Below, piece after piece: positions 6,916-34,440 of a DNA stretch of 36,300 bases. The stretch is from Phycisphaerales bacterium (GTDB lineage Bacteria; Planctomycetota; Phycisphaerae; UBA1845; Fen-1342): positions 392-36,691 of the forward strand of contig PMMM01000163.1 of the NCBI GenBank assembly GCA_003162245.1, in the 5' to 3' direction. The translations under genes and the position numbers were made by a program. Within the stretch, counting starts at the first letter, position 1, and the number at the start of each line of letters is the position of its first letter. The notes under the pieces are model-generated. The model was not told where the DNA came from and did no database searches. It saw only the letters and a program-made list of their open reading frames with translations.

Positions 6916-6936
6916 GAATTCACTCCCAGCGCGCCG

Positions 6937-7026
6937 GGCCGTGCGCACAGCAAGGGCTGTGCGAACGGCCCCGAACAACGAGACTTACCAGCCGCCACTG
7001 CCGAGCGGTACTCGGCGGCCGGCGGC
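6937..7026 (-). other. Two intercistronic hairpins ahead of the GH30 gene
   Basis: Between the dockerin gene (stop at 7035) and the GH30 start (6915) lie two stable inverted repeats. One pairs GGCCGT (6937-6942) with ACGGCC (6965-6970) around an inner perfect seven-pair stem GCACAGC/GCTGTGC with a four-base loop. The other pairs GCCGAG/CTCGGC (7000-7016) inside GCCGCC/GGCGGC arms (6991-7026). Neither is followed by a T run on the minus strand, so partial termination, RNA processing or 3'-end protection is more likely than full termination. Confidence 0.5.
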
Positions 7027-7034
7027 GGCGTCTA

Positions 7035-8285: not shown

Positions 8286-8376
8286 CTTTCTCTCCTGCCT
8301 TGTCGGCACATGGCGGCTGCCCGCCGCGCTTCGTCCGAATATCCGCCCGCGGGGCTGCCCGCGGTTTTCCTCAATC

Positions 8377-11494: not shown

Positions 11495-12285
11495 TGGTTG
11501 GGGTCCGGAATGGAGTATTCGTCCCAGCCGTTGGCGATGAAGGGGTTCCGCGCTTCGTCCTGAAACTTGTAGAACGGGCTCTGGGCGAGGTACTCCTTGC
11601 CCGTGATGAAGCCCACGTGTCCGTCGACGTAACCCACGTTCAGTCCGCCGCGGACGCCCTGGTGCGAGAAGCAGCGGAGGGGCCAGTCGGCCCAGGCCAC
11701 GTCGAAAAAGAGCACGGCGCGCCCCGGAACGCGGACCGAGCCAATCGGCCGGCCGTACGCCATGTCTAACTTGGCGATATTGGGGTCCCGGTACACGACG
11801 GCCTTGTGCGTGTTGTACCGGTAGTGATTCTGCACAGTACCCTTGAGATAGTTGGGATTGTTCGGGTCTTCGCCGGGCTCGAGGCAGCGAAACACCATCG
11901 AGAAGGGGACGAACGAATTGGGATCGGCGCCCGGAATCTCGCCGCGGACGGTTCCGCCGAGGTATGGAATCAGAAGATCCTGCACAAACGGAGCATTAAG
12001 CAGCGGCTTGTATTTCGGCGCCTCGATCTCTTTGCTGTACTTGGCCAGCGGCAACCGATCCTGGTTCTCTTGCGCGTACATGTGTGCCGCCGTTACCTGC
12101 TGCCGCACGTTGGACATGCACTTGGCGCGTTTGCCCTGCGCCCGGGCCTGGCCGAGAGCCGGAATCAGGATCGAGATGAGCAGGGCAATGATCGCGACGA
12201 CGACCAGGAGCTCGATGAGGGTGAAGCCCGGGCGCGCGAATCGCCTGCGCCGGCTGTGCGGGCTGGGCGTCGTGCGGCTTTCCAT
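11491..12285 (-). CDS. Prepilin-like protein inside the glycosidase operon
   Basis: A 264-residue protein. A 20-residue Arg/Ser-rich leader ends in Pro-Gly before [20 protein letters not shown], a standard prepilin cleavage site with Glu+5. Near the end [14 protein letters not shown] matches the DGHV signature of planctomycete pseudopilin-like proteins. The ATG at 12285 is preferred because GGAGG lies ten bases upstream; an in-frame ATG at 12306 lacks a site. The stop overlaps the GH5 start by four bases, and lacI ends 30 bases upstream, so all three are probably on one mRNA. Its body differs from the pseudopilin at 513-1490 apart from the head. It may be a surface pseudopilin that helps export, or displays on the surface, the glucan-degrading proteins; that link is inferred from the operon. 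Confidence 0.85.
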
Positions 12286-12315
12286 GGCTTTCGTGCCTCC
12301 GTTCATCGGGTTCGT

Positions 12316-13380
12316 CTAGTCCGTTATCCGCTGCCCCGTCGGCGTTACACGCACCGGCACGGCCGGCGGCGGCGCCGTCGTCTGGTTGATTTCCAGGAAC
12401 GCCTCAATCTCGAGCCGCAGGGGACCCGTGGCCCGCTCGCCGTTCGGGCTCTCCGCGAGTTGCCGACAGAGCCAGCGTCCCGCCTGTTGTCCCAGTTCCG
12501 CCGCGTTCTGGCAGACCGCGGTGTAAACCGGGTGCGTCATCTTCCGCAGCCGCTCGTCGTCCACCCCGACGATCGACAGCTCGTCCGGCACGCGGACCCC
12601 GACTTCCAGCGCGCGGCGCAGCGCGCCGATCGTCAGCGCCGGATCGGCGAAGAAAATGGCCGTGGGCGGCTGCGGCAACGACATCAGGCGGTTGAACGCC
12701 GCGCCCCCGCCGCCGATTTCGGCGTTGATCGCGATGATCAGGTCCGGATCGACCTCCAGCGCTGCGTCCGCGAGCGCTGCTCCGTACGCCTCGATGCGGT
12801 CGCGATGGTCCGTGTCGAGCACCGTGTTGTGGCAGACGGCAATCCGCCGGTGCCCCAGGTTCAGCAGGTGTTCGATGGCCGCACGACTCGGCCGCGCCGA
12901 GTTGCAGCAGACGTAGCTCACCTGTTCGTCGTCGAAGCGGTCGGCGATGACGATGTGCGGGACCCCGTCGGCGGCGATCGCACTGCACACGAGGCGGGTT
13001 TCCTCGTCGACCCGGACGACGAGCCCCTCGACGCCCTTGCGCATCGCGAACGCGGCGAAGCCCTCGCCCGGCCTGCGGTCCAGCGGATCGATGACACACA
13101 CGTCGTACTTCAACGCCACCGCAGCGCGGGTCACGCCGCCCCAGATCACCGCGTCATAGCCGCTGAACTTCGGCCCGGACGTCTCGTTGAAGAAGATGAT
13201 GCCGATCCGGCCGGTGCGGAGCGCGCGGCGGGGCAGCGCGTAGCCGATGCGGCGGGCCTCGGCGATCACCTTCTCGCGCACGGCGTTGCTGACGTCGGGG
13301 GAGTTGTTGAGCGAGCGGGAAACGGTCGCCGGGGAAACCCCCAAGCTCTCTGCGATGCCTCGGACAGAAGCCGAACTCAC
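12316..13380 (-). CDS. LacI family transcriptional regulator
   Basis: A 354-residue DNA-binding sugar sensor. Residues about 3-50 are the LacI helix-turn-helix and hinge (VRGIAESLGVSPATVSRSLN, then Val-Ile-Ala-Glu-Ala-Arg-Arg-Ile-Gly-Tyr). Residues 60-340 are the periplasmic-binding-protein-like effector domain, with VVRVDEETRL, a VIADRFDDEQV region and SIVGVDDERL. The start is GTG at 13380, with GGTGAGGA about seven bases upstream. It is the first gene of the minus-strand run toward GH30. A 14-bp LacI-type palindrome lies 44 bases upstream, directly after the -10 box, so the protein probably represses its own operon until an inducing sugar binds. The inducer is unknown; a beta-gluco-oligosaccharide or glucose derivative fits the context. 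Confidence 0.92.
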   Translation of the reverse strand: MSSASVRGIAESLGVSPATVSRSLNNSPDVSNAVREKVIAEARRIGYALPRRALRTGRIGIIFFNETSGPKFSGYDAVIWGGVTRAAVALKYDVCVIDPLDRRPGEGFAAFAMRKGVEGLVVRVDEETRLVCSAIAADGVPHIVIADRFDDEQVSYVCCNSARPSRAAIEHLLNLGHRRIAVCHNTVLDTDHRDRIEAYGAALADAALEVDPDLIIAINAEIGGGGAAFNRLMSLPQPPTAIFFADPALTIGALRRALEVGVRVPDELSIVGVDDERLRKMTHPVYTAVCQNAAELGQQAGRWLCRQLAESPNGERATGPLRLEIEAFLEINQTTAPPPAVPVRVTPTGQRITD

Positions 13381-13423
13381 TGCTGGTCCTCACCGAGACT
13401 GGGTGATGATTCTCTGAAACATA

Positions 13424-13468
13424 CAGAAACGTTACTGGAATAGTATCCGTATTCTCGGCGCCGTGCAA
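13424..13468 (-). promoter_or_regulatory. Promoter and LacI-type operator of the glycosidase operon
   Basis: On the minus strand TTGCAC (13463-13468), a 17-base spacer and TACTAT (13440-13445) form a good sigma-70-like promoter. The operator-like palindrome CAGAAACGTTACTG (13424-13437, one mismatched pair, AACGTT core with central CG as in LacI-family sites) covers the transcription start. Position and core fit autoregulation by the lacI gene that begins at 13380. Confidence 0.72.
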
Positions 13469-13488
13469 GGAAAAAACACCACTTCTAC

Positions 13489-13517
13489 TTGAATTGGACC
13501 ATGAAACAGCGTATCAT
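13489..13517 (+). promoter_or_regulatory. Promoter of the GH1 beta-glucosidase gene
   Basis: TTGAAT (13489-13494), a 17-base spacer and TATCAT (13512-13517, five of six consensus bases) read toward the GH1 gene, giving a leader of about 40 bases. The LacI-type operator lies about 52 bases upstream of this -35 box, so one bound repressor could influence both divergent promoters. Confidence 0.6.
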
Positions 13518-13565
13518 GCGCTTCTGAATCGTTCCGGAACAGCGCGAGACAAGAGGACACCCCGA

Positions 13566-14948
13566 ATGCGGTTTCCAGATGGGTTCGTGTGGGGGGTGGC
13601 GGCGGCTGCATACCAAATAGAAGGCGCGACCCGCGCGGATGGGCGGGGTCCGTGCGTGTGGGATGCGCTCTGTACGCGTCCTGGGGCGGTTTTTGGCGGT
13701 CACAGCGGCGCCACCGCCTGCGACCACTACCACCGTTACCCCGAGGACGTGGTGCTGATCGCCGAGCTAGGCGTCAAGGCCTATCGCCTGTCGGTGAGCT
13801 GGCCGCGCGTGCTGCCCAGCGGCGAGCAGCCGATAAACGGAGCGGGACTCGATTTCTACGACCGCTTGGTTGACGCGTTGCTCTCCCGCGGCGTGAAGCC
13901 GTGGGTCACGTTGTTTCACTGGGACTTCCCGCTGGCCCTGCAGCAGCGCGGCGGGTGGCTGAATCGGGCCAGCGTCGGCTGGTTTGCGGATTACGCCGAG
14001 GTGGTCGTTCGCCGGCTGGGGGATCGCGTGCAGCACTGGATGACGCTGAACGAGCCGCAGTGTTTCGTGGGGCTCGGACATAGCTCGGGCGTTCACGCAC
14101 CCGGGCTGCGGTACAACCGGCCGGACGTACTGCGCGTGGCGCACCATGCGCTGCTGGCGCACGGACGCGCCGTGCAGGTTATCCGAGAGAACGCCAAGCT
14201 AAAGCCGCTGATCGGCTGGGCACCGCATGGCTCGATGCCGTATCCGGCCACGCCGTCGGAGGCGGACGTGCAGGCCGCGCGCACCGCCCTGGCCGGGGTT
14301 CCGGCGGGCGAGCAGTGGTACTTCAGCACCTCGTGGTTCGCCGATCCGGTAGTGTTGGGGCGCTACCCGGAGGAAGGGCTCCGGCTGTTCGGCGCTGAGC
14401 TGCCGGCCGGCTTCGAGCGCGACTTGGCGCAGATCGCGCAGCCTCTGGATTTCTTTGGCGTCAACGTGTACCAGGGGCAGCCGATCGCCGCGGGGGAAAA
14501 TGGGCGGGCGGCGGCCGCGCCGCGGACACCGGGGTATCCGCACACGATGTGCGACTGGCCGGTCGAGCCGGAGGTCCTGTACTGGGGGCCGCGGTTCCTG
14601 CACGAGCGGTACAAGCTGCCGCTGTACATCACGGAGAACGGCTGCGCGGCGATGGATTGGGTGCACCAGGACGGCCGCATCCACGACAACGCGCGGATCG
14701 ACTACACGGCCCGCTACCTGACCGCCTTGCACGCGGCCATCGGCGAAGGCGCCGACGTGCGCGGCTATTTCCACTGGTCGATCATGGACAATTTTGAGTG
14801 GGCCGAAGGCTACCGGATGCGCTTCGGGCTAATTTATGTCGATCAGCGCACGATGGAGCGCATCCCCAAAGACTCATACATGTGGTACCAGCAGGTGATC
14901 CTGTCGAACGGCGCCTGCCTGCCGGCCAATCCTGTGCCGTTGCGCTAG
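13566..14948 (+). CDS. GH1 beta-glucosidase
   Basis: A 460-residue enzyme covering the whole GH1 family length. It opens with the family N-terminus FPDGFVWGVAAAAYQIEGA. The acid/base is Glu163 in WMTLNEP, and the nucleophile is Glu357 in YITENG. Further GH1 marks are KAYRLSVSWPRVLP, LFHWDFPLALQQRGGW and GYFHWSIMDNFEWAEGY. It has no signal peptide, so it should act in the cytoplasm, releasing glucose from imported beta-linked oligosaccharides. The ATG at 13566 is chosen because AGAGGA lies about nine bases upstream and the protein then begins as the family does. It is divergent from the lacI-GH5-GH30 operon and faces the shared operator. No transporter for the oligosaccharides is in the window. 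A beta-galactosidase or beta-fucosidase side activity cannot be excluded. Confidence 0.95.
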   Translation: MRFPDGFVWGVAAAAYQIEGATRADGRGPCVWDALCTRPGAVFGGHSGATACDHYHRYPEDVVLIAELGVKAYRLSVSWPRVLPSGEQPINGAGLDFYDRLVDALLSRGVKPWVTLFHWDFPLALQQRGGWLNRASVGWFADYAEVVVRRLGDRVQHWMTLNEPQCFVGLGHSSGVHAPGLRYNRPDVLRVAHHALLAHGRAVQVIRENAKLKPLIGWAPHGSMPYPATPSEADVQAARTALAGVPAGEQWYFSTSWFADPVVLGRYPEEGLRLFGAELPAGFERDLAQIAQPLDFFGVNVYQGQPIAAGENGRAAAAPRTPGYPHTMCDWPVEPEVLYWGPRFLHERYKLPLYITENGCAAMDWVHQDGRIHDNARIDYTARYLTALHAAIGEGADVRGYFHWSIMDNFEWAEGYRMRFGLIYVDQRTMERIPKDSYMWYQQVILSNGACLPANPVPLR

Positions 14949-18038: not shown

Positions 18039-18105
18039 CCTTGGCGTGCCGGCGGCGGTGGGGTATCGTCAATGGGGTACAGCTCCTTGCGAAGGGAACC
18101 ACGTT

Positions 18106-21100
18106 ATGCCTGCGCAAGTCAACGCCGCCCCGGACTCATGGGCCCGCCAGTACGCCGAACTGCTGACGGAATACGCGGAGCGCCCGTCGCCCGAACTGCT
18201 CCGCCGCGCCGCCGATCTCGGGCGCACGCGACGGCAGCGGGGGACGGCGTTGGGCGAAATCGCCGCAGCGCACACGTCGGCATTGGCGGCCCTGCTTGGC
18301 CAGCGCGGGGGCTCGACGCCCGAGCTGGTGCAGGTCGTGAGTCCGGTGCTTAGCCAGTGCCTGGAGGGCTATGGCGCCGCGTGCGAAGAGGAGTTGCAGA
18401 CGCAGCGCGCTGCGCAGCGTCGCTTCCGCGAGATGGCCGACTGCGCGCAGGCGTTTCTGTATCGGATCCGGCTGGACGACGGCTCCTTCGAGTACGTCAG
18501 CCCGTCGTGTGACCAGCTTACCGGTTTCACCGCCGACGAGCTGCGCGCCATGGGACCGGCCAGCGTGTTCCGGCGGGTCCATCCGGAGGACCAGCCGCAC
18601 GTCCTGACGCCGCGGCGGGACGTGGAGGCTGCGCCGGCGGAGGACCGTTGGCAGCGGCCCTTCGCGTTTCGGTTCCGGAACCGCCAGGGGGAGTACCGCT
18701 GGTTCAGCGGGGCGCGCGTGCTGATCCGGAACGACGACGGCGAGCCCGTCGCCGCTGTCGGGACGTTTCAGGACGTCACCGTCCAACGGCAAGCCGAGGA
18801 GCAGCTGCGGGCCAGCGAGGCTGAGCTCCGCCGGCACCGCGAACAGCTCGACGAGCTGATCGCGCAACGGACGGCAGACCTCGCGCGGCTGAACGAACGC
18901 CTGCAAACGGAGCTCGCCGAGCACCGGCGGATGGAGCAAGCGCTGCGTGAGAGCGAGGAGCGCTTCCGTCAACTCGCCGAGAACATCCGGGAGATCTTCT
19001 GGCTGTCAGAGCCGAAGAATCGGAAGTCGCTGTACGTCAGTCCGGCGTTCGAGGCGATCTGGGGACGTCCACGTGAGGACGTTTACCGCGATCCGCAGGC
19101 GTGGCTGAGTAGTATCCACCCCGAGGATCGGGCCACCACGTGGGCGAGCTTCGAGGAACAGAACCGCGGGCTGGCGACCGACTGCGAGTACCGCATCCTT
19201 CGGCCCGACGGCACGATCCGGCGCATCCGCAATCGCGGCTTTCCGATCCGCAATGCCGCGGGAGAGGTCTATCGCGTCGCGGGCATCGCGGAAGACGTGA
19301 CGGCGCAGCGGCGGATCGAGGAAGAGCTGCGGCAATTCAAGGCCCTTTCGGACCAGGCCGCCTACGGGGCGGCGATGATCGATATGACGGAGCACGTGAC
19401 TTACGTGAATGACGCCTTCGCCCAGATGCACGGGTACACGCCGGACGAGCTGCTGGGCCGGCACGTGTCCGTTTTTCACGACGCGGAGCAGATGCCGCGC
19501 GTCGCCGATCTGCTGGCGCGGCTGCGGCGTGACGGCCGCGTACTGGGGGAGGAGGTCTGGCACGCCCACCGCAGCGGCCGGGTCTTCCCGACGCTCATGA
19601 ACATCACCCAGATTGCCGACGAGCACGGGCGGCCGGCGTTCATGTCCGGGACCGCCATCGACATTACGGAGCAGCGCCGGGCCGAGGAGGTGCTCCGGCA
19701 GAGCGAGAGCCAACTGCGGCTGATTACGGACAACGTGCCGGCCATGATCGTGTACGTCGATGCCCAGCGCCGCTACCGCTTCGTCAACGAACGCTTCACC
19801 AAGTGGCGCAGCGTTTCGCGGGAGCAAGTGCTCGGTCGGCCCGTGCGCGCCGTGCTCGGAGACGAGCTCTACGCCGCAATTGAACCGCACCTGTCGGCAG
19901 CGCTCGCGGGCGAACAAGTGAGCTACGAGCGGCGGGGCGACCGTCCGGGTGAGCCGGAGTGGCGCAGCGTCACTTACGTGCCGGACCGCGACGCGCGCGG
20001 CGCCGTGCAGGGTGTCTACGCGCTCATTCACGATATCACCCAGCAGAAGCGAACCGAGCAGACGCTGCGCGAGAGTGAGGAGCGGTGGCAGCGCGTCCTG
20101 ACGGAGATGCCGGTCCTGCTCGACGCGTTCGACGCCCAGGGGAATATCGTCGTCTGGAACCGCGAGTGCGAACGAGTGACCGGGTACGCGGCATCGGAGG
20201 TCATCGGGAATCCGGACGCGATGCGCATGTTCTATCCCGACGCTGCCTATCGCGCGCTCGTGCTGGCGAGCATTCGTCAGGAGCACGGCGACCACCACAA
20301 CGTGGAGTTTGAGCTCACGTGCAAGGATGGATCGCGACGCACGATCGCCTGGTCCAGCATCTCGGGTGCGGTCCCGATTCCCGGGTGGGCGACGTGGGGT
20401 GTCGGCATCGATGTGACCGAGCGGGAGCGGGCGGAAGCCGCCCTGCGCGCCAGCGAAAAGATGTTCCGCACGCTGGCCGAAACGGTCCCCGCCGCCATCA
20501 TGATCGGCCGGGGCGATTCGATGCGCTACGCGAACGAGACCGCCGCCCGCATTGCTGGCTGCACGTTGGACGAGTTCCTCGCGCGGAGCCCGTGGGCGTT
20601 TGTCCATCCCGATCATCAGGAACTGGTCCGGCAGCGGAGCCTGGCCCGGCAGGCGGGCCAGCCCGCGCCCTCACGCTACGAAATCCGCGTGGCGGGCAAA
20701 GACGGCGGCGAGCGCTGGCTCGACATGTCCGTCGCGACCGTGGAATACGAGGGCTGGCCGGCCAGCCTTGTGGCCGCACTCGACATCACCGAGCGCAAGC
20801 AGGCGGAGGAGGCGGCGCGGCAGCACCAGGAGCAACTGGCCCATGTGGCGCGCGTCAGCGCCGTGGGTGAGATGGCATCCGGCCTCGCCCACGAGCTGGC
20901 CCAGCCGCTGACTGCGATTCTCTACTTCGCCAAGGGCTGCATCACGCGGCTGACCTCCGGCGCCTGGGGCCCGGCGGAGGCCGTGCGCACGCTGGAAAAG
21001 GTGGCGGCCCAGGCCGAGCGCGCCGGCGTGTTCATTCGCCAACTCAAGACCTTCGTACGCAAGGCCGAGCGGCAGCGGGTGCGCAGCGACCTGAACGGGA

Positions 21101-21531
21101 TCGTGCGCGAGGCGCGCACGCACCACGTCGATGTCCGGCTGGACCTGGCCCAGGAGTTGCCCGCCGTCGTCGTCGATCCCGTCCAGATCGAGCAAGTGCT
21201 CTTGAACCTGGCGCGGAACGGGATCGAGGCGCTGGCGCCGTTGCCGGCGGAGCAGCGCGTACTGACGATTCGAACCGTGCGCGGCCCGGACGACACGGTC
21301 CAGGTGAGTGTCAGCGATAGCGGACCGGGAGTTCCGCCCGAGTCGGTGCCGCTGGTGTTCGATCCGTTCTTCACGACGAAACCCGGGGGCACGGGCCTGG
21401 GGCTCTCCATCAGCCGCTCGCTCGTCGAGGCGCACAACGGTAAGCTATGGGTCGAGGGCGGCCCTGCCGGAGGTGCGGTCTTCAGTTTCGTACTGCCCGT
21501 GGCCGAGGGTGCGGTCGATGCCGGACGCTGA
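18106..21531 (+). CDS. Multi-PAS sensor histidine kinase with RsbU-N-like head
   Basis: A 1141-residue kinase. The ATG at 18106 is chosen because GAAGGGA lies eight bases upstream. Residues about 1-85 resemble the helical N-terminal domain of RsbU phosphatases. Six PAS domains follow (about 106-225, 285-402, 408-522, 529-645, 658-775, 785-898), most ending in a D(V/I)T-type PAC motif, with a coiled coil at about 225-285. The kinase core has His929 in AHELAQPL (phospho-acceptor), then the N box LLNLARNGIEAL, G1 DSGPGVPPE, F box DPFFTTKPGG and G2 TGLGLSI. No membrane segment is visible, so sensing is probably cytoplasmic. The H-box type is that of FixL/TodS/DctB-like kinases. The next gene, a FixJ-type regulator, overlaps it by 14 bases and is the obvious partner. 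The signal is unknown; no heme-ligand motif was recognised. Confidence 0.92.
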   Translation: MPAQVNAAPDSWARQYAELLTEYAERPSPELLRRAADLGRTRRQRGTALGEIAAAHTSALAALLGQRGGSTPELVQVVSPVLSQCLEGYGAACEEELQTQRAAQRRFREMADCAQAFLYRIRLDDGSFEYVSPSCDQLTGFTADELRAMGPASVFRRVHPEDQPHVLTPRRDVEAAPAEDRWQRPFAFRFRNRQGEYRWFSGARVLIRNDDGEPVAAVGTFQDVTVQRQAEEQLRASEAELRRHREQLDELIAQRTADLARLNERLQTELAEHRRMEQALRESEERFRQLAENIREIFWLSEPKNRKSLYVSPAFEAIWGRPREDVYRDPQAWLSSIHPEDRATTWASFEEQNRGLATDCEYRILRPDGTIRRIRNRGFPIRNAAGEVYRVAGIAEDVTAQRRIEEELRQFKALSDQAAYGAAMIDMTEHVTYVNDAFAQMHGYTPDELLGRHVSVFHDAEQMPRVADLLARLRRDGRVLGEEVWHAHRSGRVFPTLMNITQIADEHGRPAFMSGTAIDITEQRRAEEVLRQSESQLRLITDNVPAMIVYVDAQRRYRFVNERFTKWRSVSREQVLGRPVRAVLGDELYAAIEPHLSAALAGEQVSYERRGDRPGEPEWRSVTYVPDRDARGAVQGVYALIHDITQQKRTEQTLRESEERWQRVLTEMPVLLDAFDAQGNIVVWNRECERVTGYAASEVIGNPDAMRMFYPDAAYRALVLASIRQEHGDHHNVEFELTCKDGSRRTIAWSSISGAVPIPGWATWGVGIDVTERERAEAALRASEKMFRTLAETVPAAIMIGRGDSMRYANETAARIAGCTLDEFLARSPWAFVHPDHQELVRQRSLARQAGQPAPSRYEIRVAGKDGGERWLDMSVATVEYEGWPASLVAALDITERKQAEEAARQHQEQLAHVARVSAVGEMASGLAHELAQPLTAILYFAKGCITRLTSGAWGPAEAVRTLEKVAAQAERAGVFIRQLKTFVRKAERQRVRSDLNGIVREARTHHVDVRLDLAQELPAVVVDPVQIEQVLLNLARNGIEALAPLPAEQRVLTIRTVRGPDDTVQVSVSDSGPGVPPESVPLVFDPFFTTKPGGTGLGLSISRSLVEAHNGKLWVEGGPAGGAVFSFVLPVAEGAVDAGR

Positions 21532-22147
21532 GCCCAAAGTCTTCGTGGTCGATGACGACGACGCCCTGTGCGATGCGCTCCGGGAGTTTCTCGAGGCGCA
21601 AGGTCTCCCGGTGGAGGCCTACAACTCTGCGGAGGCCTTCCTGGCCGCCGGTGGCCCCGCGCGGCCGGGGTGCCTGGTGCTCGACGTGCGCATGCGCGGG
21701 ATGAGCGGGATCGAGCTGCAAGGCCGGCTCGCGGCCGACGGCTTTGCGCTGCCCGTGATCGTCATTACCGGCCACGGGGACGTCCCGATGGCGATCCGCG
21801 CCGTCCGGAATGGCGCCGTGGACTTCCTGGAGAAACCGGTCCCCGATCAGCTCCTGCTCGAACGCATCCGCCACGCCCTCGCGCTGGACGCGCAGCGGCG
21901 GCTCGCGGCGGAGGAACGCAACGCCGCGGCCGCCCGGCTCGGCACGCTGACGCCCCGCGAACGCCAGGTCATGGACCACGTGCTCGCCGGCGAGTCGAAC
22001 AAGCAGATCGCCGCCGCGTTAGGCATCTCCGTGAAGACGGTCGAGGCGCACCGCAAGCGCGTGATGCAGAAGATGGGGGTCCACTGCGTCGTCGACTTGA
22101 TGCGGGCCGTCACGCAATCCGAGCCCCCGCGTCCCGCACGCGAATGA
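21518..22147 (+). CDS. FixJ/NarL-type response regulator
   Basis: A 209-residue two-domain regulator. The receiver (1-120) has the acidic pocket VVDDDDAL, the phospho-acceptor Asp56 in LVLDVRMRGMSG, the conserved Thr in VIVITGHGD and Lys in FLEKPV. The C-terminal LuxR-type helix-turn-helix (about 140-200) has LTPRERQVMDHVLAG, NKQIAAALGISVKTVEAHRKRVMQKM; this arrangement is that of FixJ/TodT/TtrR. The start at 21518 lies inside the kinase gene (14-base overlap), which implies translational coupling and a dedicated pair. It should activate genes once phosphorylated; its targets are not identifiable, although the membrane glycosyltransferase gene follows within 137 bases on the same strand. Confidence 0.93.
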   Translation: MPDAEPKVFVVDDDDALCDALREFLEAQGLPVEAYNSAEAFLAAGGPARPGCLVLDVRMRGMSGIELQGRLAADGFALPVIVITGHGDVPMAIRAVRNGAVDFLEKPVPDQLLLERIRHALALDAQRRLAAEERNAAAARLGTLTPRERQVMDHVLAGESNKQIAAALGISVKTVEAHRKRVMQKMGVHCVVDLMRAVTQSEPPRPARE

Positions 22148-26313: not shown

Positions 26314-27210
26314 TCACGTCGGTGCACGGGACAAAAACCCCACGCTTGAGGCGAAACAGCGCTCGCGGAGCTTCTGCCGCGCGGTCTCGTCGCGCTCGTC
26401 GCCCGCCCGCAGGTCTTCGAGGTTCGCGTTGCAGCGGTCGCAGTCGGCCTGACGCACGTGGAAGTCGATGTACTGCTCCCAGTCGTCGTCCAGCGCCCCG
26501 AGCAGGTAGCGGCCCAGCGTCGAGCGTTTCAGGCACGAGATGCCTTCTTCCCGCCAGATGCGCCCCACTGAACTCTCGGCGGCCAGGTCGCCTTCCGCGC
26601 ATTCGGGGACGCCCGACGCGGCTTGCGTGAGCCTCCGCCACTGCTCGAGCACGCGGAACTTGATGCCCGCGACGGCCGGCTCGGTCAGATCGAGGTCGGT
26701 GGCCACTTCCTTGTTGCGCAACCCGAGCACGACCAGCATCTCGATTACGATCAGGTCCTGCAGGCGGCCCTGTTCCGTGCACTGCTCGACCCACTGTCGC
26801 AGGCAATGCACCAGCGCCTGCCGTTGCGCCGCCAGCATTTCCTGCGCACCGACATGCCGGCTCGGCGTGTCCTCATCCACCCAGGCCTCCGGGGCCTCGT
26901 CGAGTTCCAATTGGTCGAGACTCTGCCGCTGGCCCGCGTAGCGCCGCCGGACGTGATCGCTGAGCTTGTTCCGGAGGATCGCGAACAGATACGTCTCGAG
27001 CGAGCGGCTCGCATCGTAGCGCGGCAGGCTGCGCAGGAACCCCAGGAATGTTTCCTGCACCAGGTCCTCGGCCTCGCTGCGCTCCGCGAGCATTCGGCGG
27101 GCGAAGCTCACCAGCCGCCCCTGATAGCGCTCGATCACCTCTTGCCACGCCTGTGGCTCGCCGCGCTGGACGGCTTCGATCAGGTAACTTTCGGCCTCGT
27201 CGGCGGGCAT
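26314..27210 (-). CDS. ECF-like sigma factor with C-terminal His-Cys-Cys motif
   Basis: A 298-residue sigma-70 family protein. Region 2 (about 20-90) includes AWQEVIERYQGRLVSFARRML, EDLVQETFLGFL and YLFAILRNKLSDHVRRR. Region 4 (about 145-190) has LIVIEMLVVLGLRNKEVATDLDLTEPAVAGIKFRV. Unusually for an ECF factor, about 90 further residues follow, with a zinc-ligand-like motif His251-x5-Cys257-x2-Cys260 in a context (WEQYIDFH...CNANLEDL) recalling zinc anti-sigma domains (H-x3-C-x2-C) with two extra residues. The ATG at 27210 is the most plausible start, though its binding site is weak. It lies downstream of the kinase and FHA genes on the same strand (gap 173 bases). ECF groups linked to Ser/Thr kinases are known in planctomycetes; this fits that theme. 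It probably directs polymerase to an envelope-response regulon. Confidence 0.88.
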   Translation of the reverse strand: MPADEAESYLIEAVQRGEPQAWQEVIERYQGRLVSFARRMLAERSEAEDLVQETFLGFLRSLPRYDASRSLETYLFAILRNKLSDHVRRRYAGQRQSLDQLELDEAPEAWVDEDTPSRHVGAQEMLAAQRQALVHCLRQWVEQCTEQGRLQDLIVIEMLVVLGLRNKEVATDLDLTEPAVAGIKFRVLEQWRRLTQAASGVPECAEGDLAAESSVGRIWREEGISCLKRSTLGRYLLGALDDDWEQYIDFHVRQADCDRCNANLEDLRAGDERDETARQKLRERCFASSVGFLSRAPT

Positions 27211-27383
27211 CGCTCGCGTTCCGAACCTAGCGCCTGGCACGTTGTCGCACGCCACCAAGGTGCAGGATAACGCCGATGGCCGCGGGGGCATACATGGCCC
27301 GCCCGTGTCCGTCCGCCCCCCCGCGCCGCTCGAAAAGGCCAGGGCGTCCCACCGACCGCGCGTGCTGTGCTCCCCGACGTGCT

Positions 27384-29684
27384 TCAAATCACGATGGGCC
27401 GGTTCGGATCGCGGCGGCGCTGCGCTAGCAACACCAGCCCGACGAAGACCATCGCTGCCGCCATAGCGACCGGCGCCCAGACGGTGGGGTCTTCTTGCGT
27501 GAACTGTGTCCACCCACTGTTGAGCAGCACTGACACGCCCGCGCTGGCGACCGTCGTGGCGCACAGCGCGCCCGCGATCATCAGGCCACAACCCGCCGCA
27601 CCGCGTACCATGTGCCCCGCGCCCGCCCCGCGCCGCGCCAGCACGAGCAATACGCTGCCCGCCGCCAGGCACAGCACCATCGTGCGCGAAGCGGTCCTGA
27701 CGCGTTCCGACACGACCACGTGCGACGTCGGCCCCAGGCGCATTCCTGGTACCGCCAACTTCTCGACCCGCGTCGTGGATCGATGCGGCACGCCATACCC
27801 TACGGCCGAGACCAGCCCCACCACCAACAGCACCTTGCCCAGGAACGACAGCCCCGCATGGCTGCAACGCCGGCCCAGCGACGGCCCGGCCGCCTCGACC
27901 ACCACCGGAGCCTCGGGCGGCGACCCCGCGGGCATCGTCGGCGCGTTCGGCGGCGCCGTCCGCCCAGGGGTCGGAACGACATGGCCGACTCCCGCTCGTG
28001 GCAGGGGCATCCCCCGACCAAAGGGCACCGGCCGCTCGAACGCCGGCAGCACCGGCGCGACCGGCCACAACGCCGCCGTCGCCTGCGTCAGCAGCGCGAT
28101 CGTCGCGCAGATCCCGGCCGCGACCCATATGTAGTCGCCTCCGTTCGCAATCGCGGCGACGACGAGTCCGATGATCGCGGGCCAGACGATCACTCCGCCT
28201 TTGACCTGTCCGCGGCGGCCATTCTCGATCAGCCGGCGCCAGTCGCTGATCGCGATGGCGGCGATCGGCGCGAGGATGAGTCGCTCCAACGGGTGCAGGT
28301 GCGCGTCGGACGCAATCCCATAGCCGATTAACATGCAGAAACCGCCCACCGTGGCGTACACGAGCCGATCCACGAGCGCGCTGCGCGCGTACCACCGGCG
28401 CATCAAGACCAGATGGGCCACCAGCGGCCCGGCGATCCCGCCGATGATGTAGAAAACGAGCGTCGCCGCTTGGTCTTCCGTCTTCTCGCCTCCCGAACTC
28501 ACGAGGCTAAGCACGATGCCCACACCTACCGCGACGATCAGCAGTACGAACAACTGCGGTAACCGATGTAAACGCAGCACGGGGCCGTCCGCCGGCGACG
28601 GTGGCTGCCCACGGCCGGTCCAGCCGCCCCACTTCTCCTGAATCCGCGCGGCCTTCGCTTCCACCTTCGCGAACTTCTCGTCCAGCTTCTCATTCAGACG
28701 GTCGAGCTTCGCGCGAAGCCGCGGCGGTAACTCCGCTCCGCCGATCTGCGGAATCGGCCCCTCGCGCACGTCCAGCGGCGGCGGCACCGCCGGCCGCGCC
28801 GGCGAAGTCAGCGTCTCATCCGGGTCGTGGGCCTCCGGCGCCCGCGGCACCTGCGTCAGCGCGCTCGCGTCGAACGCCTCCACGTCGCGGCTGAACTCGG
28901 GCGAGTCCAGGATCGCGGCAAGCATCTCGTCCGCGTCCTGGTACCGCTCGGCGGGATCCTTGGCGAGCGCCTTCGCGATCACCGCCGCGAACGGCGCCGG
29001 CACGCCCGACAAATCCGGGTTGTCCTTCAGGTGCCGCATGAGCACTTCGCCCATGCTCGACCCCGTGAACGGCAGCCGGCCCGTGAGCATCTCGTACACG
29101 ATCACGCCGAGGGCGTAAATGTCGATCGCCTTCGTGTAGCTGCCCGAGCCGATCTCCGGGGCCATGTAGTGCACGGTGCCGACGCTGACGGTCTGCCCGC
29201 TGTGCCGCGACACCGAAATGTGCTTGCTCAGCCCGTAATCGCCGATCTTCACGTACCCGTCGTCATAGAAGATGTTCGCCGGCTTCATGTCGCGGTGCAC
29301 GATCCCGCGCTCGTGCAGGTAGCTCAGCCCGGCCACGATGCCGCGCAGCAGAAACGCAACTTTCTGCGGGCTCATGCCCGCCGGCTCGGCCAACAGCAAC
29401 TCGCGCAGCGACGGCCCGCCGATGTACTCCATGATGACGAACGAATCGCCGGCGGCGTTCCGCTTCACGTCGTAGATCGTGATCAGGTGCGGGCTCTTCA
29501 GGTTCAGGACGTGCGCGATGCCACGTAGCTCGATCTCCGGATTCTCGCGCAGGTACTTGAGCGCCACCTGCTTGCCGGAGTCGGCGAGGGCGTAATACAC
29601 CTCGCCAAACCCGCCGCGCCCGACGGCCCGCTGCACGCAGAAGCCCTCCAGCGGGCGATCGCCATGCTTGTACGTGTACGGCAC
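27384..29684 (-). CDS. Transmembrane Ser/Thr protein kinase (DYG variant)
   Basis: A 766-residue kinase. The start is GTG at 29684, with AAGGAGAG upstream; an ATG at 29720 has no such site. The kinase domain (about 15-275) has the Gly loop VGRGGFGEVY, Lys43 in VALKYL, Asp132 in HRDMKPAN and Asp149 in GDYG, where Phe of the usual DFG is Tyr. After a Pro/Ala linker and a charged coiled-coil-like stretch (about 325-360, LRAKLDRLNEKLDEKFAKVE), the C-terminal half holds around eight to ten hydrophobic segments (about 375-745). The multi-pass tail has no domain I recognise. It should phosphorylate proteins on Ser/Thr at the membrane. Gene order FHA - kinase - sigma on one strand (gaps 63 and 173 bases) suggests it phosphorylates the FHA protein or the sigma factor. 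Confidence 0.92.
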   Translation of the reverse strand: MPYTYKHGDRPLEGFCVQRAVGRGGFGEVYYALADSGKQVALKYLRENPEIELRGIAHVLNLKSPHLITIYDVKRNAAGDSFVIMEYIGGPSLRELLLAEPAGMSPQKVAFLLRGIVAGLSYLHERGIVHRDMKPANIFYDDGYVKIGDYGLSKHISVSRHSGQTVSVGTVHYMAPEIGSGSYTKAIDIYALGVIVYEMLTGRLPFTGSSMGEVLMRHLKDNPDLSGVPAPFAAVIAKALAKDPAERYQDADEMLAAILDSPEFSRDVEAFDASALTQVPRAPEAHDPDETLTSPARPAVPPPLDVREGPIPQIGGAELPPRLRAKLDRLNEKLDEKFAKVEAKAARIQEKWGGWTGRGQPPSPADGPVLRLHRLPQLFVLLIVAVGVGIVLSLVSSGGEKTEDQAATLVFYIIGGIAGPLVAHLVLMRRWYARSALVDRLVYATVGGFCMLIGYGIASDAHLHPLERLILAPIAAIAISDWRRLIENGRRGQVKGGVIVWPAIIGLVVAAIANGGDYIWVAAGICATIALLTQATAALWPVAPVLPAFERPVPFGRGMPLPRAGVGHVVPTPGRTAPPNAPTMPAGSPPEAPVVVEAAGPSLGRRCSHAGLSFLGKVLLVVGLVSAVGYGVPHRSTTRVEKLAVPGMRLGPTSHVVVSERVRTASRTMVLCLAAGSVLLVLARRGAGAGHMVRGAAGCGLMIAGALCATTVASAGVSVLLNSGWTQFTQEDPTVWAPVAMAAAMVFVGLVLLAQRRRDPNRPIVI

Positions 29685-29747
29685 CTCTGACTCTCCTTGG
29701 GGCGGCCTGCACAAGCTCATCCGTGCGGGACGCTCCCACCGCGAGCG

Positions 29748-31322
29748 CTACATATACGGCTTTACCGTCACGCGCAGCCGCGCCACCTCGAGCGTCTGTC
29801 CCGCCACCACCGGCGCGGCGCGGAGCGTCGGGCCGCCCAGGCGGGCGTCCTGGATCGGTCGCGCGTACAGGGCCCCGCCGCGCTCGAACAATACGATCTG
29901 ACCGTCGTCTTCGCGCGTGCGGACGTGGCACGTCGCGGCCGGCCCGATCAGGCACGTGTCGCGAAACAGCACGACGTCGCTCACGTCCTGCGGCAGCCGG
30001 CAGCGGTGCGATAGCCGCAGCACCGCCGATTCGCTCTTCGAGCTCGGCTTGTGGAACGTCAACCGTGCCTCGCCCAGCGCGATCTGGTCGCCGTCGTGCA
30101 GCAAACGCTGCTGGACCGGCTGCTGGTTGACCCGCGCCGGGCCGAACGCGGTCAGGAAGTAGTCCCCGCCGCGCCGAATGATGTCCGCGTGGTGCGACTG
30201 CAACTCCGCGGGCAGGGGCACGTCGATTTCGGTCGTGGAGCCGGCGTGGCCGATGCGCACCTGGTCGCGCCGCAGGAGCAGGCTGCTGCCGCCGCCATCG
30301 ACGAGCATCAGCAACGGGCGGTCGAGCCGCAGCGCATTCGGGTCGCATGCGTCCAGCCCCCCGCCGCGCGCCGCCGTCGCCGCATCCACGGCACGGCCAT
30401 CCGGCGTCGTCCGCTCCCCCGCCGTAGTGGCAAAAAGCCCCAGTGGCGAGGTCAGGAGCTGCTCCTGGCCTTCCGCAATCCGGGTCAGCGCGTCCAGCGC
30501 CGCATTCACCCACGCAACGGCGCCACGGGCCGCCTTCAAGCGGAGCAACGTCTGGCGCAGGCCGGCGTAATCGGTCGCGGCAAGCTGCGCCGCGGCCCGC
30601 GCGCACAGCTCGATGAGCCGTTCGCAGTCCGCCAGCGCCGGATCGTGCGCCGCGAGCGCGCCGATTCCGGCGCGGGCGGCCAGCAGCCCCTCCGTCCGAC
30701 CTTCCGCGTGCCAGCGGTCAACCGCCTGCCGGCCCGCCACCGCCAGCCGCGCCGCAAAACCATCTGTCTCGGCCGTGCGTCCGTGCCGGGCCGCCTCCTG
30801 CCAGTACCGCAGCGCCGCCAGCACGTCGTCGCGGCCCAGCGCGTCGGCGGCCTGCTGCAGCAACTGGCCGCCGCGCTGTACGCGCCGCTCAAGCTCCCCG
30901 GCCAATTGCTCGTGTTGGCGCGCGTCCTCGACGTTATCAAGCTGGAGTCGCCCCGTTTCGAGGTGCCCGGCCCGCAGGTGGTCGGCAGCCTGTTGGTACG
31001 CGTCCCGGTCCTGAGCCGACCGCCGGGCCCCCTCACGGACCTCCTGCGCGATCTGCTGCCGCAGGGCCTTAGCATCCGGCCCCTCGCGGTTCAGCCCCGC
31101 GAGGCGGTCGAGATCGACGAGGGCCTCGCGATAGCGGCCAGCCTGCCGGTGCAGGCGGGCACGGGCCTCCAGTGGCTTGGCCAGGGCGTCGAGCAGGGCC
31201 TGTCCACGCGAATCCTCCCGCAGATTCAGCTCGGCGGCGATGGCGAGCGCATCGTCCAGCCGACCCTGCAAGAGGGCCTTCTCGGCGGCCCGGATGCGCA
31301 CGTGAAACCAGCGGGCAAACAT
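29748..31322 (-). CDS. FHA domain protein with helical repeat N-terminus
   Basis: A 524-residue cytoplasmic protein. The ATG at 31322 is chosen because GAGGAC lies nearby and the upstream extension lacks coding character. Residues about 1-300 are rich in Ala, Leu, Arg and Gln helices (ALLQGRLDDALAIAAELN, AGRYREALVDLDRLAGL), TPR-like or long helical hairpins. Residues about 340-440 form an FHA domain, with VRIGHAGSTTEIDVPLP and SHHADIIRRGGDYFL covering the Gly and Ser-x-x-His positions that read phosphothreonine. The last part (about 445-524) looks like a second, degenerate FHA (LIGPAATCHV, DGQIVLFERGGALYARP). It is the first gene of the run with kinase and sigma factor and likely binds kinase products. 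TAGAAT (31363-31368, minus) is a possible -10. Confidence 0.85.
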   Translation of the reverse strand: MFARWFHVRIRAAEKALLQGRLDDALAIAAELNLREDSRGQALLDALAKPLEARARLHRQAGRYREALVDLDRLAGLNREGPDAKALRQQIAQEVREGARRSAQDRDAYQQAADHLRAGHLETGRLQLDNVEDARQHEQLAGELERRVQRGGQLLQQAADALGRDDVLAALRYWQEAARHGRTAETDGFAARLAVAGRQAVDRWHAEGRTEGLLAARAGIGALAAHDPALADCERLIELCARAAAQLAATDYAGLRQTLLRLKAARGAVAWVNAALDALTRIAEGQEQLLTSPLGLFATTAGERTTPDGRAVDAATAARGGGLDACDPNALRLDRPLLMLVDGGGSSLLLRRDQVRIGHAGSTTEIDVPLPAELQSHHADIIRRGGDYFLTAFGPARVNQQPVQQRLLHDGDQIALGEARLTFHKPSSKSESAVLRLSHRCRLPQDVSDVVLFRDTCLIGPAATCHVRTREDDGQIVLFERGGALYARPIQDARLGGPTLRAAPVVAGQTLEVARLRVTVKPYM

Positions 31323-31362
31323 CAGACGTCCTCGCGGTGCCTCGCAGACGAGGTCCGACAAC

Positions 31363-31368
31363 ATTCTA
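31363..31368 (-). promoter_or_regulatory. Possible -10 of the FHA-kinase-sigma run
   Basis: On the minus strand GTTAGAAT stands 41 bases ahead of the FHA start; the same GTTAGAAT precedes the squalene synthase start at 17021-17028. No convincing -35 box is present. Between here and 31571 I see no gene on either strand. Confidence 0.3.
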
Positions 31369-31571
31369 ACACACGCCCACGCCGGGTCCTGCGACCCGGC
31401 AGGCACGGGGGTATTCGCGGCCCGAGGAACGATATTTGGCGTCGGCCCGGCCGGCCCCCCCGGGCAGCGACGCGCAAGTTTTGCCTGCCTGTCGAAATCT
31501 CGCCGCATTACACAGCCGCCGCGTCAAAATGGCCGATACTCCTGTCAGAAACCCTTTCGGAGGTCGTTAAC

Positions 31572-31592
31572 GTGAAGTTTGGTTCCAGTTAG
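31572..31592 (+). CDS. Possible six-residue leader ORF (MKFGSS)
   Basis: A GTG eight bases after a strong GGAGG (31559-31563) opens GTG-AAG-TTT-GGT-TCC-AGT-TAG. CTCC at 31539-31542 could pair with GGAG and hide the site. It lies 36 bases ahead of the next tiny ORF. The peptide itself carries little; a leader or translation-coupling role is possible, but the ORF may equally be chance. Confidence 0.3.
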   Translation: MKFGSS

Positions 31593-31627
31593 CTCGGTGG
31601 GGAAGAGGAAGCGAGAGGTACAGTACC

Positions 31628-31708
31628 ATGCTGCTTCCCTGGATCATCGAGTTGTGGCGGATCCTCACGCACTGTTACGACTACATTATCCTGGGGGTCG
31701 AGGGTTGA
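31628..31708 (+). CDS. Tiny hydrophobic peptide, 26 residues
   Basis: The peptide MLLPWIIELWRILTHCYDYI...EG is hydrophobic with three early aromatic/acidic turns, likely membrane-associated. Most codons (about 21 of 25) end in G or C, like real genes in this genome. A GAGAGG site lies about nine bases upstream. The stop is four bases ahead of the next start at 31713. I do not recognise the sequence. It lies on the plus strand in the gap between the FHA gene and the CHASE2 kinase, both on the minus strand. Confidence 0.42.
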   Translation: MLLPWIIELWRILTHCYDYIILGVEG

Positions 31709-31712
31709 GGCC

Positions 31713-31856
31713 ATGGTCTTCGGACCGGTCAACGCTCCGCCCCATCCCGACGAGTTCGCCCTGGGCAGTCGCGTCGCAGCTGCAATGTGGTTGATGGCGG
31801 GCACGCTGCTGGCTTTGCTCGTGGCGTGGTCGCTCGAACCCCATTGGGTCGCCTGA
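31713..31856 (+). CDS. Small single-pass membrane protein, 47 residues
   Basis: Residues 1-20 are polar with several Pro (MVFGPVNAPPHPDEF). Residues about 21-41 form one membrane helix (RVAAAMWLMAGTLLALLVAW), ending SLEPHWVA. Most codons end in G or C. GAGG lies directly ahead of the ATG, and the preceding tiny ORF ends four bases upstream, so the two are probably cotranslated. The function is unknown. A small partner of the neighbouring membrane kinases is possible, but this is guesswork from position. Confidence 0.52.
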   Translation: MVFGPVNAPPHPDEFALGSRVAAAMWLMAGTLLALLVAWSLEPHWVA

Positions 31857-32073
31857 CCGAAACGAGCGAGTTCGACAGGCAGGATAGTGGGAGCGAGTCA
31901 AAACACGCGGCGGCGATAATGCCGCCCGGCGCCGTGTCCCGTCCCGGCACAGCCGGTCGTGTTGGCGCGGCCCTCAGGTCTCGGCACACATCGCGCGAGC
32001 ACGGTTAGGCGCACTCTCGAACCTCGCCGCAGCGTCAGGATGACGGCTTGCCATTCCCCGCCCCGGTCGCGCG

Positions 32074-34440
32074 TCACAGGCCGCTTTCTCTCCGCGCCGG
32101 CGTCCCCGCCCAGGTCGTCGACCCCGTTGTGCCGTCTGGCGACCACACCGGACCGGGCGTCAGGTGTAGTTGCCGCTGGTGCAGCAGTTTGACCGCCAGG
32201 ATGGGGCCGGCCACGGCAAAGAAGGCGCAGAGCGCGATCGCAACCTCCCCGCTCTCGCGCGTCGTCGCACCCAGGCCCGCGCGCGACGCCAGCGCGATAC
32301 CCAGCGCGAAGCTCGACAGCCCTATGGCCAGGGCGAGGCGCGGCGACCGGGTCGCACGCGTCGGAATCAAGCTGACCAGCAAGGCGGCGACCGCACACCA
32401 TCCGCACACGCGCAGCACCACCATGCCGGGAGTCAGACGCGCGATTTGGACCTGGCTCAGCAGGTTCTCGAGGGCTGCCGCCTGGACCTCACAGCCGAAC
32501 ACATGTTGTCCCGAGGCCAGCGCGTGCCAGTCGGCCCCCGGCATCATCTGGCCGATCACAACGGCGTGGTCGCCGAACCAGCCCCGAAGCTGGTCGGCAT
32601 CGGCGGCCAGCACCTGCTCGACCGGAATCGCCCGCCCGGCCCACTGCGGGGCCTCGTCCACACGGACGCGGCCGTTCAGAATCTGGTCCCCGGCCTCGAA
32701 GCGGGTGTCGCCCTGCCTCGGGGGCGCGGTGTCAAAGACGGGGAGCGTGTCGATCTCGCTGCGCCGCCGCCGCTGCTCGGCCGGGGTCGCGCCCCTGCGG
32801 TAGCCCAGATCCAGCCGGTGGGGCTGCACACGGATGTCCACGTCGCTGTCGGGGAACCGGGCGGCGGCAAAAGCGGCGACTGCGAGCGACGGGGACGGCG
32901 GACCGAACTCGTGCTGAACGGCCAGCGGCATGGCGATCTCCAACCCGAGCGACTCCGGCCGATCGGAGACCAGCACGCCCCAGCCATGGACAACGCCGCG
33001 CAGGGCGGGACACAGCACCGGCTCCCCGTTGACGTCGAGCTTCTCAGTGCCGACGACCACCGGCACACCCAGCGCCCGGACGCCGCGGACAAAGCCCTCG
33101 TCGTACTCTGGACGGCAATCCGGGAAATAGTAGTCCCAGACGACGACCCGCGGCCGGGCCGCGGCGAGCTTCTCCATCAGCCGGCCATACAGCAGGCGCC
33201 AGCTCTTGCGGTCACCCGCCGACAACCCGGGCAGGTCGCTGCCGATCTGACCGTTTTGGAGGGCCTGTAGCGTACCGGCGGTGAACCCGATCAATGCGGT
33301 CGGCGTGCGCCCGCGCGCGGGACCCATCCACCGCGCCTCCACGCGCCAGAACGTGACACTCAGCAGGGCCGCGGCGAACGCCGTCAGCAGAACCTGCACC
33401 GCGCGCGGGTGGTTGCGCAGAACCAGCGCGGTGATGCGCGCCAGACGATCGCTGGCGGGCGCGTCGCGCCGCGCCCGGATCTCGTGCCCCGCCAGGTAGC
33501 GTTCCAGGTCCTCAACCAGCGCCGCGCACGTGGCATAGCGCTGCTCGGGCTTCGCGTGCACGCAGCAGGCGATGATCGCCGCCAGGTCGTCCGCCCGGTT
33601 CACTTCCCGCTCGCGCAGGATCGCCGTCAGGCGCTCGATCTGCGCGGCGAAACGTGCGGGCTGGCCCGTGATCACGTGGAACAGCAGGACGCCCAGGCCA
33701 TATACGTCCGCACGGGCGTCCACCGCCTGCCCCGCAATCTGTTCCGGCGCCATGTAGCCGTATGTCCCGAGCGGGCCCTCGCGCGGCGGCGGTGGGCCGA
33801 CCGGCGGCGCGGACGTCTCGCGCGTCAGGCCGAGCCGCTTGGCAATGCCGAAGTCCACGATGCGCGGTTGCCCGTCCGCGTCAATGATGATGTTCTGCGG
33901 CTTGAGGTCGCGATGCACGACGCCTTCGCGGTGGGCATAGTCGACCGCGGCGCCAACGGCCTGGATGATCTTGATGCGCTCCTCGAGCGAAACGTCGCGC
34001 GCGCGAATGTACTCGTCGAGCTGCTGGCCCGCGACGAACTCCATCGCGTAGTACAAGGGCGGGTTGTCGAGCCGCGCCTCGTACAATGTCGCGATGTTCG
34101 GATGCCGCAGCTTCGCGACGAGGTGCACCTCGTTCTCGAAGTACGCCTCGCGTAGCGGCGTAGTGGAAAAAAGGACCTTGAGCGCCTCGGCCCGCGCCTT
34201 GCCGTGGTGAAACGCCTTGTACACGACGCCGAAGCCGCCGCGGCCCAGCTCCGACAGGATCGTGTACCCGCTGAATCTCGGAAACCGCCCCTCCGTGAGC
34301 TCCCGGTACACGGCGCGACACGCTTCGCACTGCTCCAGGTGCGCCTCGGCGTCGCGCCGCTGCACGTCCGGCAAATCACCGGCGGCGAAGGCCGTGGTGG
34401 TATCGCGTTGCGGGCAGGACTGTACGGCTCGGGTGGGCAT
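32074..34440 (-). CDS. Ser/Thr kinase with N-terminal zinc finger and CHASE2 sensor
   Basis: A 788-residue kinase. Residues 9-41 hold a zinc anti-sigma-type finger: Cys9, then His34-x3-Cys38-x2-Cys41. The kinase domain (about 59-320) has LGRGGFGVVY, Lys88 in EALKVL, Asp178 in HRDLKPQN and Asp196 in VDFG, all canonical. A membrane helix (about 345-365) leads to an extracytoplasmic CHASE2 domain (about 375-650, with VVVWDYYFPDCRPEYDEGF and the later VVIGQMMPG). Three or so helices follow (about 660-770). This is the usual CHASE2-kinase order: outside sensor, inside kinase. The ATG at 34440 is chosen because it puts the finger near the start, though its ribosome site is weak; TTG at 34479 is an alternative. 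TATACT (34503-34508, minus) may be the -10. The zinc finger could bind the nearby sigma factor. Confidence 0.9.
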   Translation of the reverse strand: MPTRAVQSCPQRDTTTAFAAGDLPDVQRRDAEAHLEQCEACRAVYRELTEGRFPRFSGYTILSELGRGGFGVVYKAFHHGKARAEALKVLFSTTPLREAYFENEVHLVAKLRHPNIATLYEARLDNPPLYYAMEFVAGQQLDEYIRARDVSLEERIKIIQAVGAAVDYAHREGVVHRDLKPQNIIIDADGQPRIVDFGIAKRLGLTRETSAPPVGPPPPREGPLGTYGYMAPEQIAGQAVDARADVYGLGVLLFHVITGQPARFAAQIERLTAILREREVNRADDLAAIIACCVHAKPEQRYATCAALVEDLERYLAGHEIRARRDAPASDRLARITALVLRNHPRAVQVLLTAFAAALLSVTFWRVEARWMGPARGRTPTALIGFTAGTLQALQNGQIGSDLPGLSAGDRKSWRLLYGRLMEKLAAARPRVVVWDYYFPDCRPEYDEGFVRGVRALGVPVVVGTEKLDVNGEPVLCPALRGVVHGWGVLVSDRPESLGLEIAMPLAVQHEFGPPSPSLAVAAFAAARFPDSDVDIRVQPHRLDLGYRRGATPAEQRRRRSEIDTLPVFDTAPPRQGDTRFEAGDQILNGRVRVDEAPQWAGRAIPVEQVLAADADQLRGWFGDHAVVIGQMMPGADWHALASGQHVFGCEVQAAALENLLSQVQIARLTPGMVVLRVCGWCAVAALLVSLIPTRATRSPRLALAIGLSSFALGIALASRAGLGATTRESGEVAIALCAFFAVAGPILAVKLLHQRQLHLTPGPVWSPDGTTGSTTWAGTPARRESGL

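Follow-up and report, generated by a model that had tools for sequence, protein, structure and literature searches.

Several groups of kinase-associated extracytoplasmic function (ECF) sigma factors have been described in Planctomycetes and Proteobacteria, namely ECF43, ECF59, ECF61, ECF62 and ECF217, and no classical separate anti-sigma gene has been reported alongside them (PMC8999054). In ECF43, a phosphothreonine supplies the charge missing from region 2.2 of the sigma factor (PMC8999054). A second type of organization is represented by ECF48, ECF52 and ECF53, e.g. SCO4117, where the sigma factor continues at its C-terminus into a zinc anti-sigma domain (PMC8999054). Both kinase-linked and zinc-fused ECF sigma factors are thus already known (PMC8999054). 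The locus described here lies within a window of 36,300 nucleotides, the whole stretch of DNA analysed, from a Phycisphaerales bacterium (contig PMMM01000163.1, positions 392 to 36,691). The minus strand of the window carries, in a row, a CHASE2 sensor kinase, an FHA-domain protein, a membrane kinase and an ECF sigma factor, all four with open reading frames. The last 93 residues of the sigma factor form a candidate dedicated inhibitor, a zinc-type domain for which the PDB offers only zinc anti-sigma factors as fold neighbours, each of them a weak match. On balance, we lean towards a kinase-linked ECF unit whose sigma factor carries a fused inhibitory zinc domain, the inhibition being relieved by kinase phosphorylation. 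What the computation establishes for this reading is that the domain is fused to sigma, that a stand-alone partner gene is homologous to it, that gene order is conserved and that the genes co-occur. The features of the locus are as follows:

26314–27210, minus strand: ECF sigma factor, 298 aa, ATG at 27210, start MPADEAES...; Pfam Sigma70_r2 1.4e-20, Sigma70_ECF 1.1e-8; NCBIfam sigma70-ECF 3e-21
26926–27210, minus strand: sigma2 domain, residues 1–95, with region 2.2 motif EAED-LVQETF; VIA-align to SigW sigma2
26620–26865, minus strand: end of the sigma2–sigma4 linker and sigma4, residues 116–197; whole-sigma alignments to 1or7 and 6in7; linker TPS (115–117) conserved
26317–26595, minus strand: C-terminal zinc-type, anti-sigma-like domain, residues 206–298, with C226, H251, C257, C260 and the tail FxSSVGFL
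27384–29684, minus strand: Ser/Thr kinase of the Hanks type, C-terminal half multi-pass membrane (~8 predicted helices), GTG start; Pfam Pkinase 7.1e-49
29748–31322, minus strand: FHA-domain protein, 524 aa, FHA domain at ~30072–30257; Pfam FHA 1.8e-4, just above cut-off
32074–34440, minus strand: CHASE2 sensor kinase; Pfam Pkinase 1.2e-47, CHASE2 1.9e-10, zf-HC2 8.1e-6 (above cut-off)
34315–34392, minus strand: zf-HC2 finger at the N-terminus of the CHASE2-kinase; Pfam 8.1e-6

The FHA, kinase and sigma genes show operon-like spacing, with gaps of ~63 and ~173 bp, and ~750 bp separate the end of the CHASE2-kinase gene from the start of the FHA gene. The sequence-only reading of this DNA had placed sigma factor, kinase and FHA protein in a row on one strand with the CHASE2-kinase just beyond, an arrangement with which the open frames and the Pfam matches agree. 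Two features had escaped it, the conserved zinc-type C-terminal domain of the sigma factor and the zf-HC2 finger at the start of the CHASE2-kinase.

The zinc-type domain in fused and separate form

Profile matches and fold alignments identify the protein as an ECF sigma factor. Its AlphaFold model, with a predicted local distance difference test score (pLDDT) of 84.7, aligns to solved ECF sigma factors, and its sigma2 domain superimposes on that of SigW with a Z of 14.7 and a root-mean-square deviation of 1.9 over 94 residues (VIA-align). Pfam Sigma70_r4 gave no match to the sigma4 domain, which is divergent. Among 60 fused orthologues, D49 and Q52 of region 2.2 are invariant and E48 is conserved in at least 90%. 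Since the acidic EAED motif of this region is intact, the charge-restoration mechanism of ECF43 is not required and was ruled out for this sigma factor.

The C-terminal residues 206–298 are roughly as conserved as the sigma2 domain; including the tail FxSSVGFL, they vary less than the linker and large parts of sigma4. In the same 60 orthologues, C226, K228, R229, T231, G233, H251, C257, C260, A262, N263 and D266 are invariant. Modelled alone (pLDDT 85), the domain is predicted to consist of the helices H9–17, H24–31, H37–49 and H53–89. A Foldseek search of this model against 350,542 PDB chains, allowing E up to 10, returned a single match, the anti-sigma factor RsiW (E 5.6), and a second look with VIA listed only RsiW (Z 5.8), RslA (5.5) and ChrR (3.9 and 3.8). 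The agreement of these weak matches on zinc anti-sigma factors appears hard to explain by chance. In class I anti-sigma domains, a three-helix bundle binds sigma4 and a fourth helix binds sigma2 (PMC7406223); the model of the fused domain shows this make-up, a three-helix bundle and a long fourth helix (PDB match Z at most 5.8). A PDB sequence search with the fused-domain profile gave no relevant match, and the fold search with the whole sigma model was filled by sigma matches and uninformative on the C-terminal domain.

A phylum-wide search revealed that the zinc domain separates from the sigma factor in other Planctomycetota. In the families f51, f92 and f101, the sigma gene stops after sigma4 and a second frame of ~135–150 residues carries the zinc domain. 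The fused and stand-alone profiles are homologous, with an E of 2.4e-32 in hhalign. Pfam zf-HC2 was found above cut-off in two of the ten stand-alone proteins tested (1.7e-6 and 1.9e-7), and the NCBIfam model 'antisigma' is matched weakly, at 2.4e-4, far below its own cut-off. In several stand-alone proteins, the shared Hx5Cx2C module is preceded by a finger with the canonical Hx3Cx2C motif, one such finger being the 1.9e-7 zf-HC2 match. With the stand-alone-form profile, the zinc domain was detected in 51 of 294 genomes, in one copy each, and the sigma factor is present in all 51; eight phylum genomes with weak sigma matches (E at least 4e-27) and no zinc domain were taken, by judgement, to contain other ECF sigma factors.

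Fusion to sigma is the state seen in Phycisphaerae, in f57, in a single member of f52 and in a few others. A separate zinc gene lies downstream of sigma in ~10 families: directly so, and usually with the kinase directly upstream of sigma, in f30, f34, f61, f71, f74, f94 and f106; in f63, where no kinase was seen; adjacent in f101; and within at most ~1.3 kb in two of the three f92 genomes. In one large family, f51, it is unlinked. In a phylogeny built from the sigma part, the fused and separate states require at least three changes (fusion or fission); if the separate state were ancestral, a point that the tree does not settle, fusion would have occurred repeatedly. An apparently recent change is seen in f52, where the domain is fused in L233 and split in L265 by an in-frame TAG followed by a new Met.

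Rather than an inhibitor, the domain could be a docking or activating module that recruits the kinase or the FHA protein, or aids RNA polymerase binding, with the sigma factor activated by direct phosphorylation in a broadly ECF43-like manner. The strict conservation of the zinc domain and its tail, compared with the linker and much of sigma4, is compatible with such a role, as is the fact that the CHASE2-kinase begins with a zf-HC2 finger, which indicates that fingers of this kind need not be anti-sigma. The conserved S117 of the linker, discussed below, also fits. We regard this alternative as rather unlikely, because every fold neighbour of the domain is an anti-sigma factor, a separate zinc gene immediately after sigma reproduces the classical sigma/anti-sigma layout, and the retained acidic region 2.2 makes a charge-restoring switch unnecessary.

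The possibility of a sigma factor without any anti-sigma-like partner was rejected on account of the fused zinc domain and its homologous stand-alone gene in relatives. The sequence-only reading had stated that the locus lacks a separate anti-sigma factor. This holds literally, as the stand-alone-form profile detected no separate anti-sigma-like zinc gene in the window genome; the implied freedom from anti-sigma control does not hold in the same way, given the anti-sigma-like domain fused to the sigma factor itself. The same reading would have been contradicted by a dedicated anti-sigma gene located elsewhere, and what was found comes close to this: a fused domain here and a separate, adjoining gene in many relatives.

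The conserved FHA–kinase–sigma unit

The sigma factor has a single full-length orthologue per genome, which far outscores other ECF matches. Identity amounts to 60–78% inside its family and to 37–46% in the other families of the order, and the named relatives are metagenome-assembled genomes of uncultured Phycisphaerae and Planctomycetota. Neighbourhoods were compared for 80 sigma loci, 54 of which extend 6 kb or more beyond sigma on its upstream side, and gene order was counted by hand from the table. FHA then kinase precede sigma, in the same order and on the same strand, in 32 of these 54 loci. Co-occurrence was evaluated across 198 sampled genomes of the class Phycisphaerae: sigma and the kinase were each found in 50, with 49 genomes having both, two having only one of them and 147 having neither (Fisher p 3e-44, shared ancestry not corrected for). 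The kinase thereby accompanies sigma in 49 of the 50 sigma-bearing genomes, and the two are adjacent on one strand, kinase then sigma, in 37 of the 49 genomes having both. Where sigma sits apart or went undetected, FHA adjoins the kinase in all 11 genomes examined. The core unit is FHA–kinase–sigma; it is kept across Phycisphaerae and extends to other classes of Planctomycetota, and its gene order is far from chance, judging from both neighbourhood and co-occurrence. The earlier proposal that these three genes form one unit is well supported, since co-occurrence is near-perfect, a single order and strand is observed where they are linked, and independent scatter of the homologues was not seen.

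Two variations of the unit were observed. Extra FHA-linked kinase copies, mostly in tandem, occur in a few genomes (L043, G003:C2, at 7877–8650 and 9449–10258; also G037, G041 and G217), a single copy being usual. In L250, L251, L254, L259 and L264, lineages with a separate zinc gene, the upstream FHA match lies in a much larger protein of ~890–970 aa.

The membrane kinase retains intact catalytic motifs (GRGGFG, VALK, HRDMKPAN, DYG and APE) and is the conserved input candidate. The kinase C-termini of the family share a short hydrophobic motif (RPIVI, RQIVI, ETIVV, RTIVV), located at 27384–27400 in the window. In FHA domains that bind phosphothreonine, the conserved Arg of GR and the Ser of SRxH contact the phosphate. 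In an alignment of 52 proteins these residues are not conserved: GH replaces GR in the window, GP, GG or GQ is found in some others, and the Ser of SRxH is replaced in nearly all. With the phosphate-contacting residues lost, the FHA protein is probably a scaffold for the kinase rather than a phospho-reader. A second FHA-like stretch follows the FHA domain in the window protein, as noticed by eye.

The CHASE2-kinase behaves differently from the core genes. Orthologues exist in 25 of 27 family genomes, and the gene adjoins the FHA gene in only ~8 of them, i.e., the window, its congener and ~6 others; outside the family, only weak and partial homologues of 29–34% identity were found. It was accordingly rejected as a core member, its close orthologues being confined to the family and linked in a minority of genomes. 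Its zf-HC2 is of the type found in zinc anti-sigma factors, and the Cys/His ligands of this finger are not strictly conserved among the family orthologues. When the fused sigma domain was compared with it by hhalign, the C/H/C/C positions fell in register, a result that is suggestive only (Prob 10–29%).

The sequence-only reading had proposed that CHASE2 senses an outside signal, which is relayed through a phospho-reading FHA protein to activate a sigma factor devoid of an anti-sigma factor. CHASE2 is a recognised sensor domain, and the window, its congener and several family genomes carry all four genes in collinear order. This scheme is nevertheless improbable: the CHASE2-kinase is linked in only ~8 of the 25 family genomes that encode it and fades to weak partial homologues beyond the family, which speaks against its role as the input; the degenerate phosphate-binding residues of the FHA domain, including the GH of the window copy, disfavour the relay; and an anti-sigma-like domain is present.

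Elsewhere in the window, positions 18046–22147 hold a histidine kinase of 1161 aa with ~6 PAS domains and, immediately after it, a response regulator that has a receiver and a LuxR-type helix-turn-helix (21470–22147). Pfam matches also delineate a carbohydrate cluster at 4804–14948, with GH30 (4804–6978), GH5 (9005–11494), a LacI-type regulator (12319–13380) and GH1 (13554–14945).

Possible control of the sigma factor by the kinase

In the reading that we favour, which is also the simplest, a fused inhibitory domain is under kinase control: by folding back on sigma2 and sigma4, the zinc domain most probably keeps the sigma factor in an inactive state. The adjacent kinase, with the FHA protein probably acting as its scaffold, would be activated by a signal at the membrane and would phosphorylate the sigma factor and/or its zinc domain. 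Phosphorylation would loosen the inhibition, and the sigma factor could then bind RNA polymerase. Zinc binding, inhibition by the zinc domain and release by phosphorylation are steps that we infer. Phosphorylation as the trigger is a plausible candidate step, and a precedent is provided by PknB, which acts on the zinc anti-sigma factors RshA and RseA (PMC8999054).

As regards the sites, eight Ser/Thr residues are conserved in at least 97% of the fused orthologues: S61, T73, T115, S117, S225, T231, S288 and S289. The candidate targets among them are S117 in the sigma2–sigma4 linker, T231 and the tail residues S288/S289. S117 is present in 58 of the 60 orthologues; at the corresponding position, four other ECF sigma factors from the same genome have Asp or Gly. 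EcfK is phosphorylated in this same linker region (PMC13147305).

Several observations weigh against this interpretation. The motif of the fused domain is Hx5Cx2C and not the canonical Hx3Cx2C, and Pfam gave no match for the fused domain of the window and none meaningful in the 60 relatives. The Hx3Cx2C motif marks the zinc-binding class I members, and many class I anti-sigma factors are without it (PMC7406223). Each structural match is individually weak, both by Foldseek E and by Z. Coupling between the genes is not absolute, since single-member genomes exist (G009 and G188, as well as G016 and G057, which lack a kinase match). Finally, S288/S289 could serve the fold of the tail instead of the kinase.

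An invariant Cys/His set in a soluble domain would also suit direct sensing of redox state or metals, as known from CorE and from systems of the RsrA/ChrR type, with the kinase serving other targets; CorE-type sigma factors with metal-sensing C-terminal extensions do exist (PMC8999054). The near-perfect co-occurrence and adjacency of the kinase, which retains all its catalytic motifs, make this explanation quite unlikely.

Comparison with described systems

In the literature consulted, no kinase operon was found with a soluble zinc domain that is fused to the sigma factor and, across lineages, interchangeable with a separate gene. A broader proposal, which we put forward tentatively and hold as a serious possibility short of an even chance, is that a widespread planctomycetal class of kinase-linked ECF sigma factors, seemingly anti-sigma-free, is governed by a hidden dedicated zinc partner, repeatedly fused or relocated and switched through phosphorylation by the kinase of the operon. 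Kinase-linked ECF sigma factors have so far been described as anti-sigma-independent. If the proposal is true, neighbourhood-based classification has overlooked a zinc partner that some lineages carry as a fusion and others as an unlinked gene, and control by the kinase and by the anti-sigma partner would be a single pathway and not alternatives. Lineages with the fused and the separate form constitute natural pairs for direct testing.

By gene context, the locus resembles ECF43, ECF59, ECF61, ECF62 and ECF217, as the ECF sigma gene adjoins a Hanks-type kinase gene. It differs from ECF43 in the intact acidic region 2.2 motif, and from the described kinase-associated groups in general in that its type possesses a fused or separate zinc anti-sigma-like partner. 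As in ECF48, ECF52 and ECF53, a zinc-finger domain is joined to the C-terminus of the sigma factor; those groups, however, are actinobacterial and membrane-anchored, with activation by proteolysis expected, whereas the window sigma factor has no predicted membrane helix, is kinase-linked and corresponds to separate genes in relatives. With the class I factors RsiW, RslA, ChrR and RshA, the domain appears to share a predicted three-helix bundle bearing a Cys/His set and then a long fourth helix. Unlike them, it is a fused module with Hx5Cx2C and no recognisable sensor domain, and the candidate for its control is the kinase of the same operon. PknB, for comparison, is not known to be encoded in the same operon as its anti-sigma targets, and the anti-sigma in the PknB systems is a separate protein, unlike the fused domain described here. 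The likeness to Mycobacterium tuberculosis PknB with RshA/SigH and RseA/SigE lies in the pairing of a Ser/Thr kinase with a zinc anti-sigma factor, on which the kinase is here proposed to act (PMC8999054).

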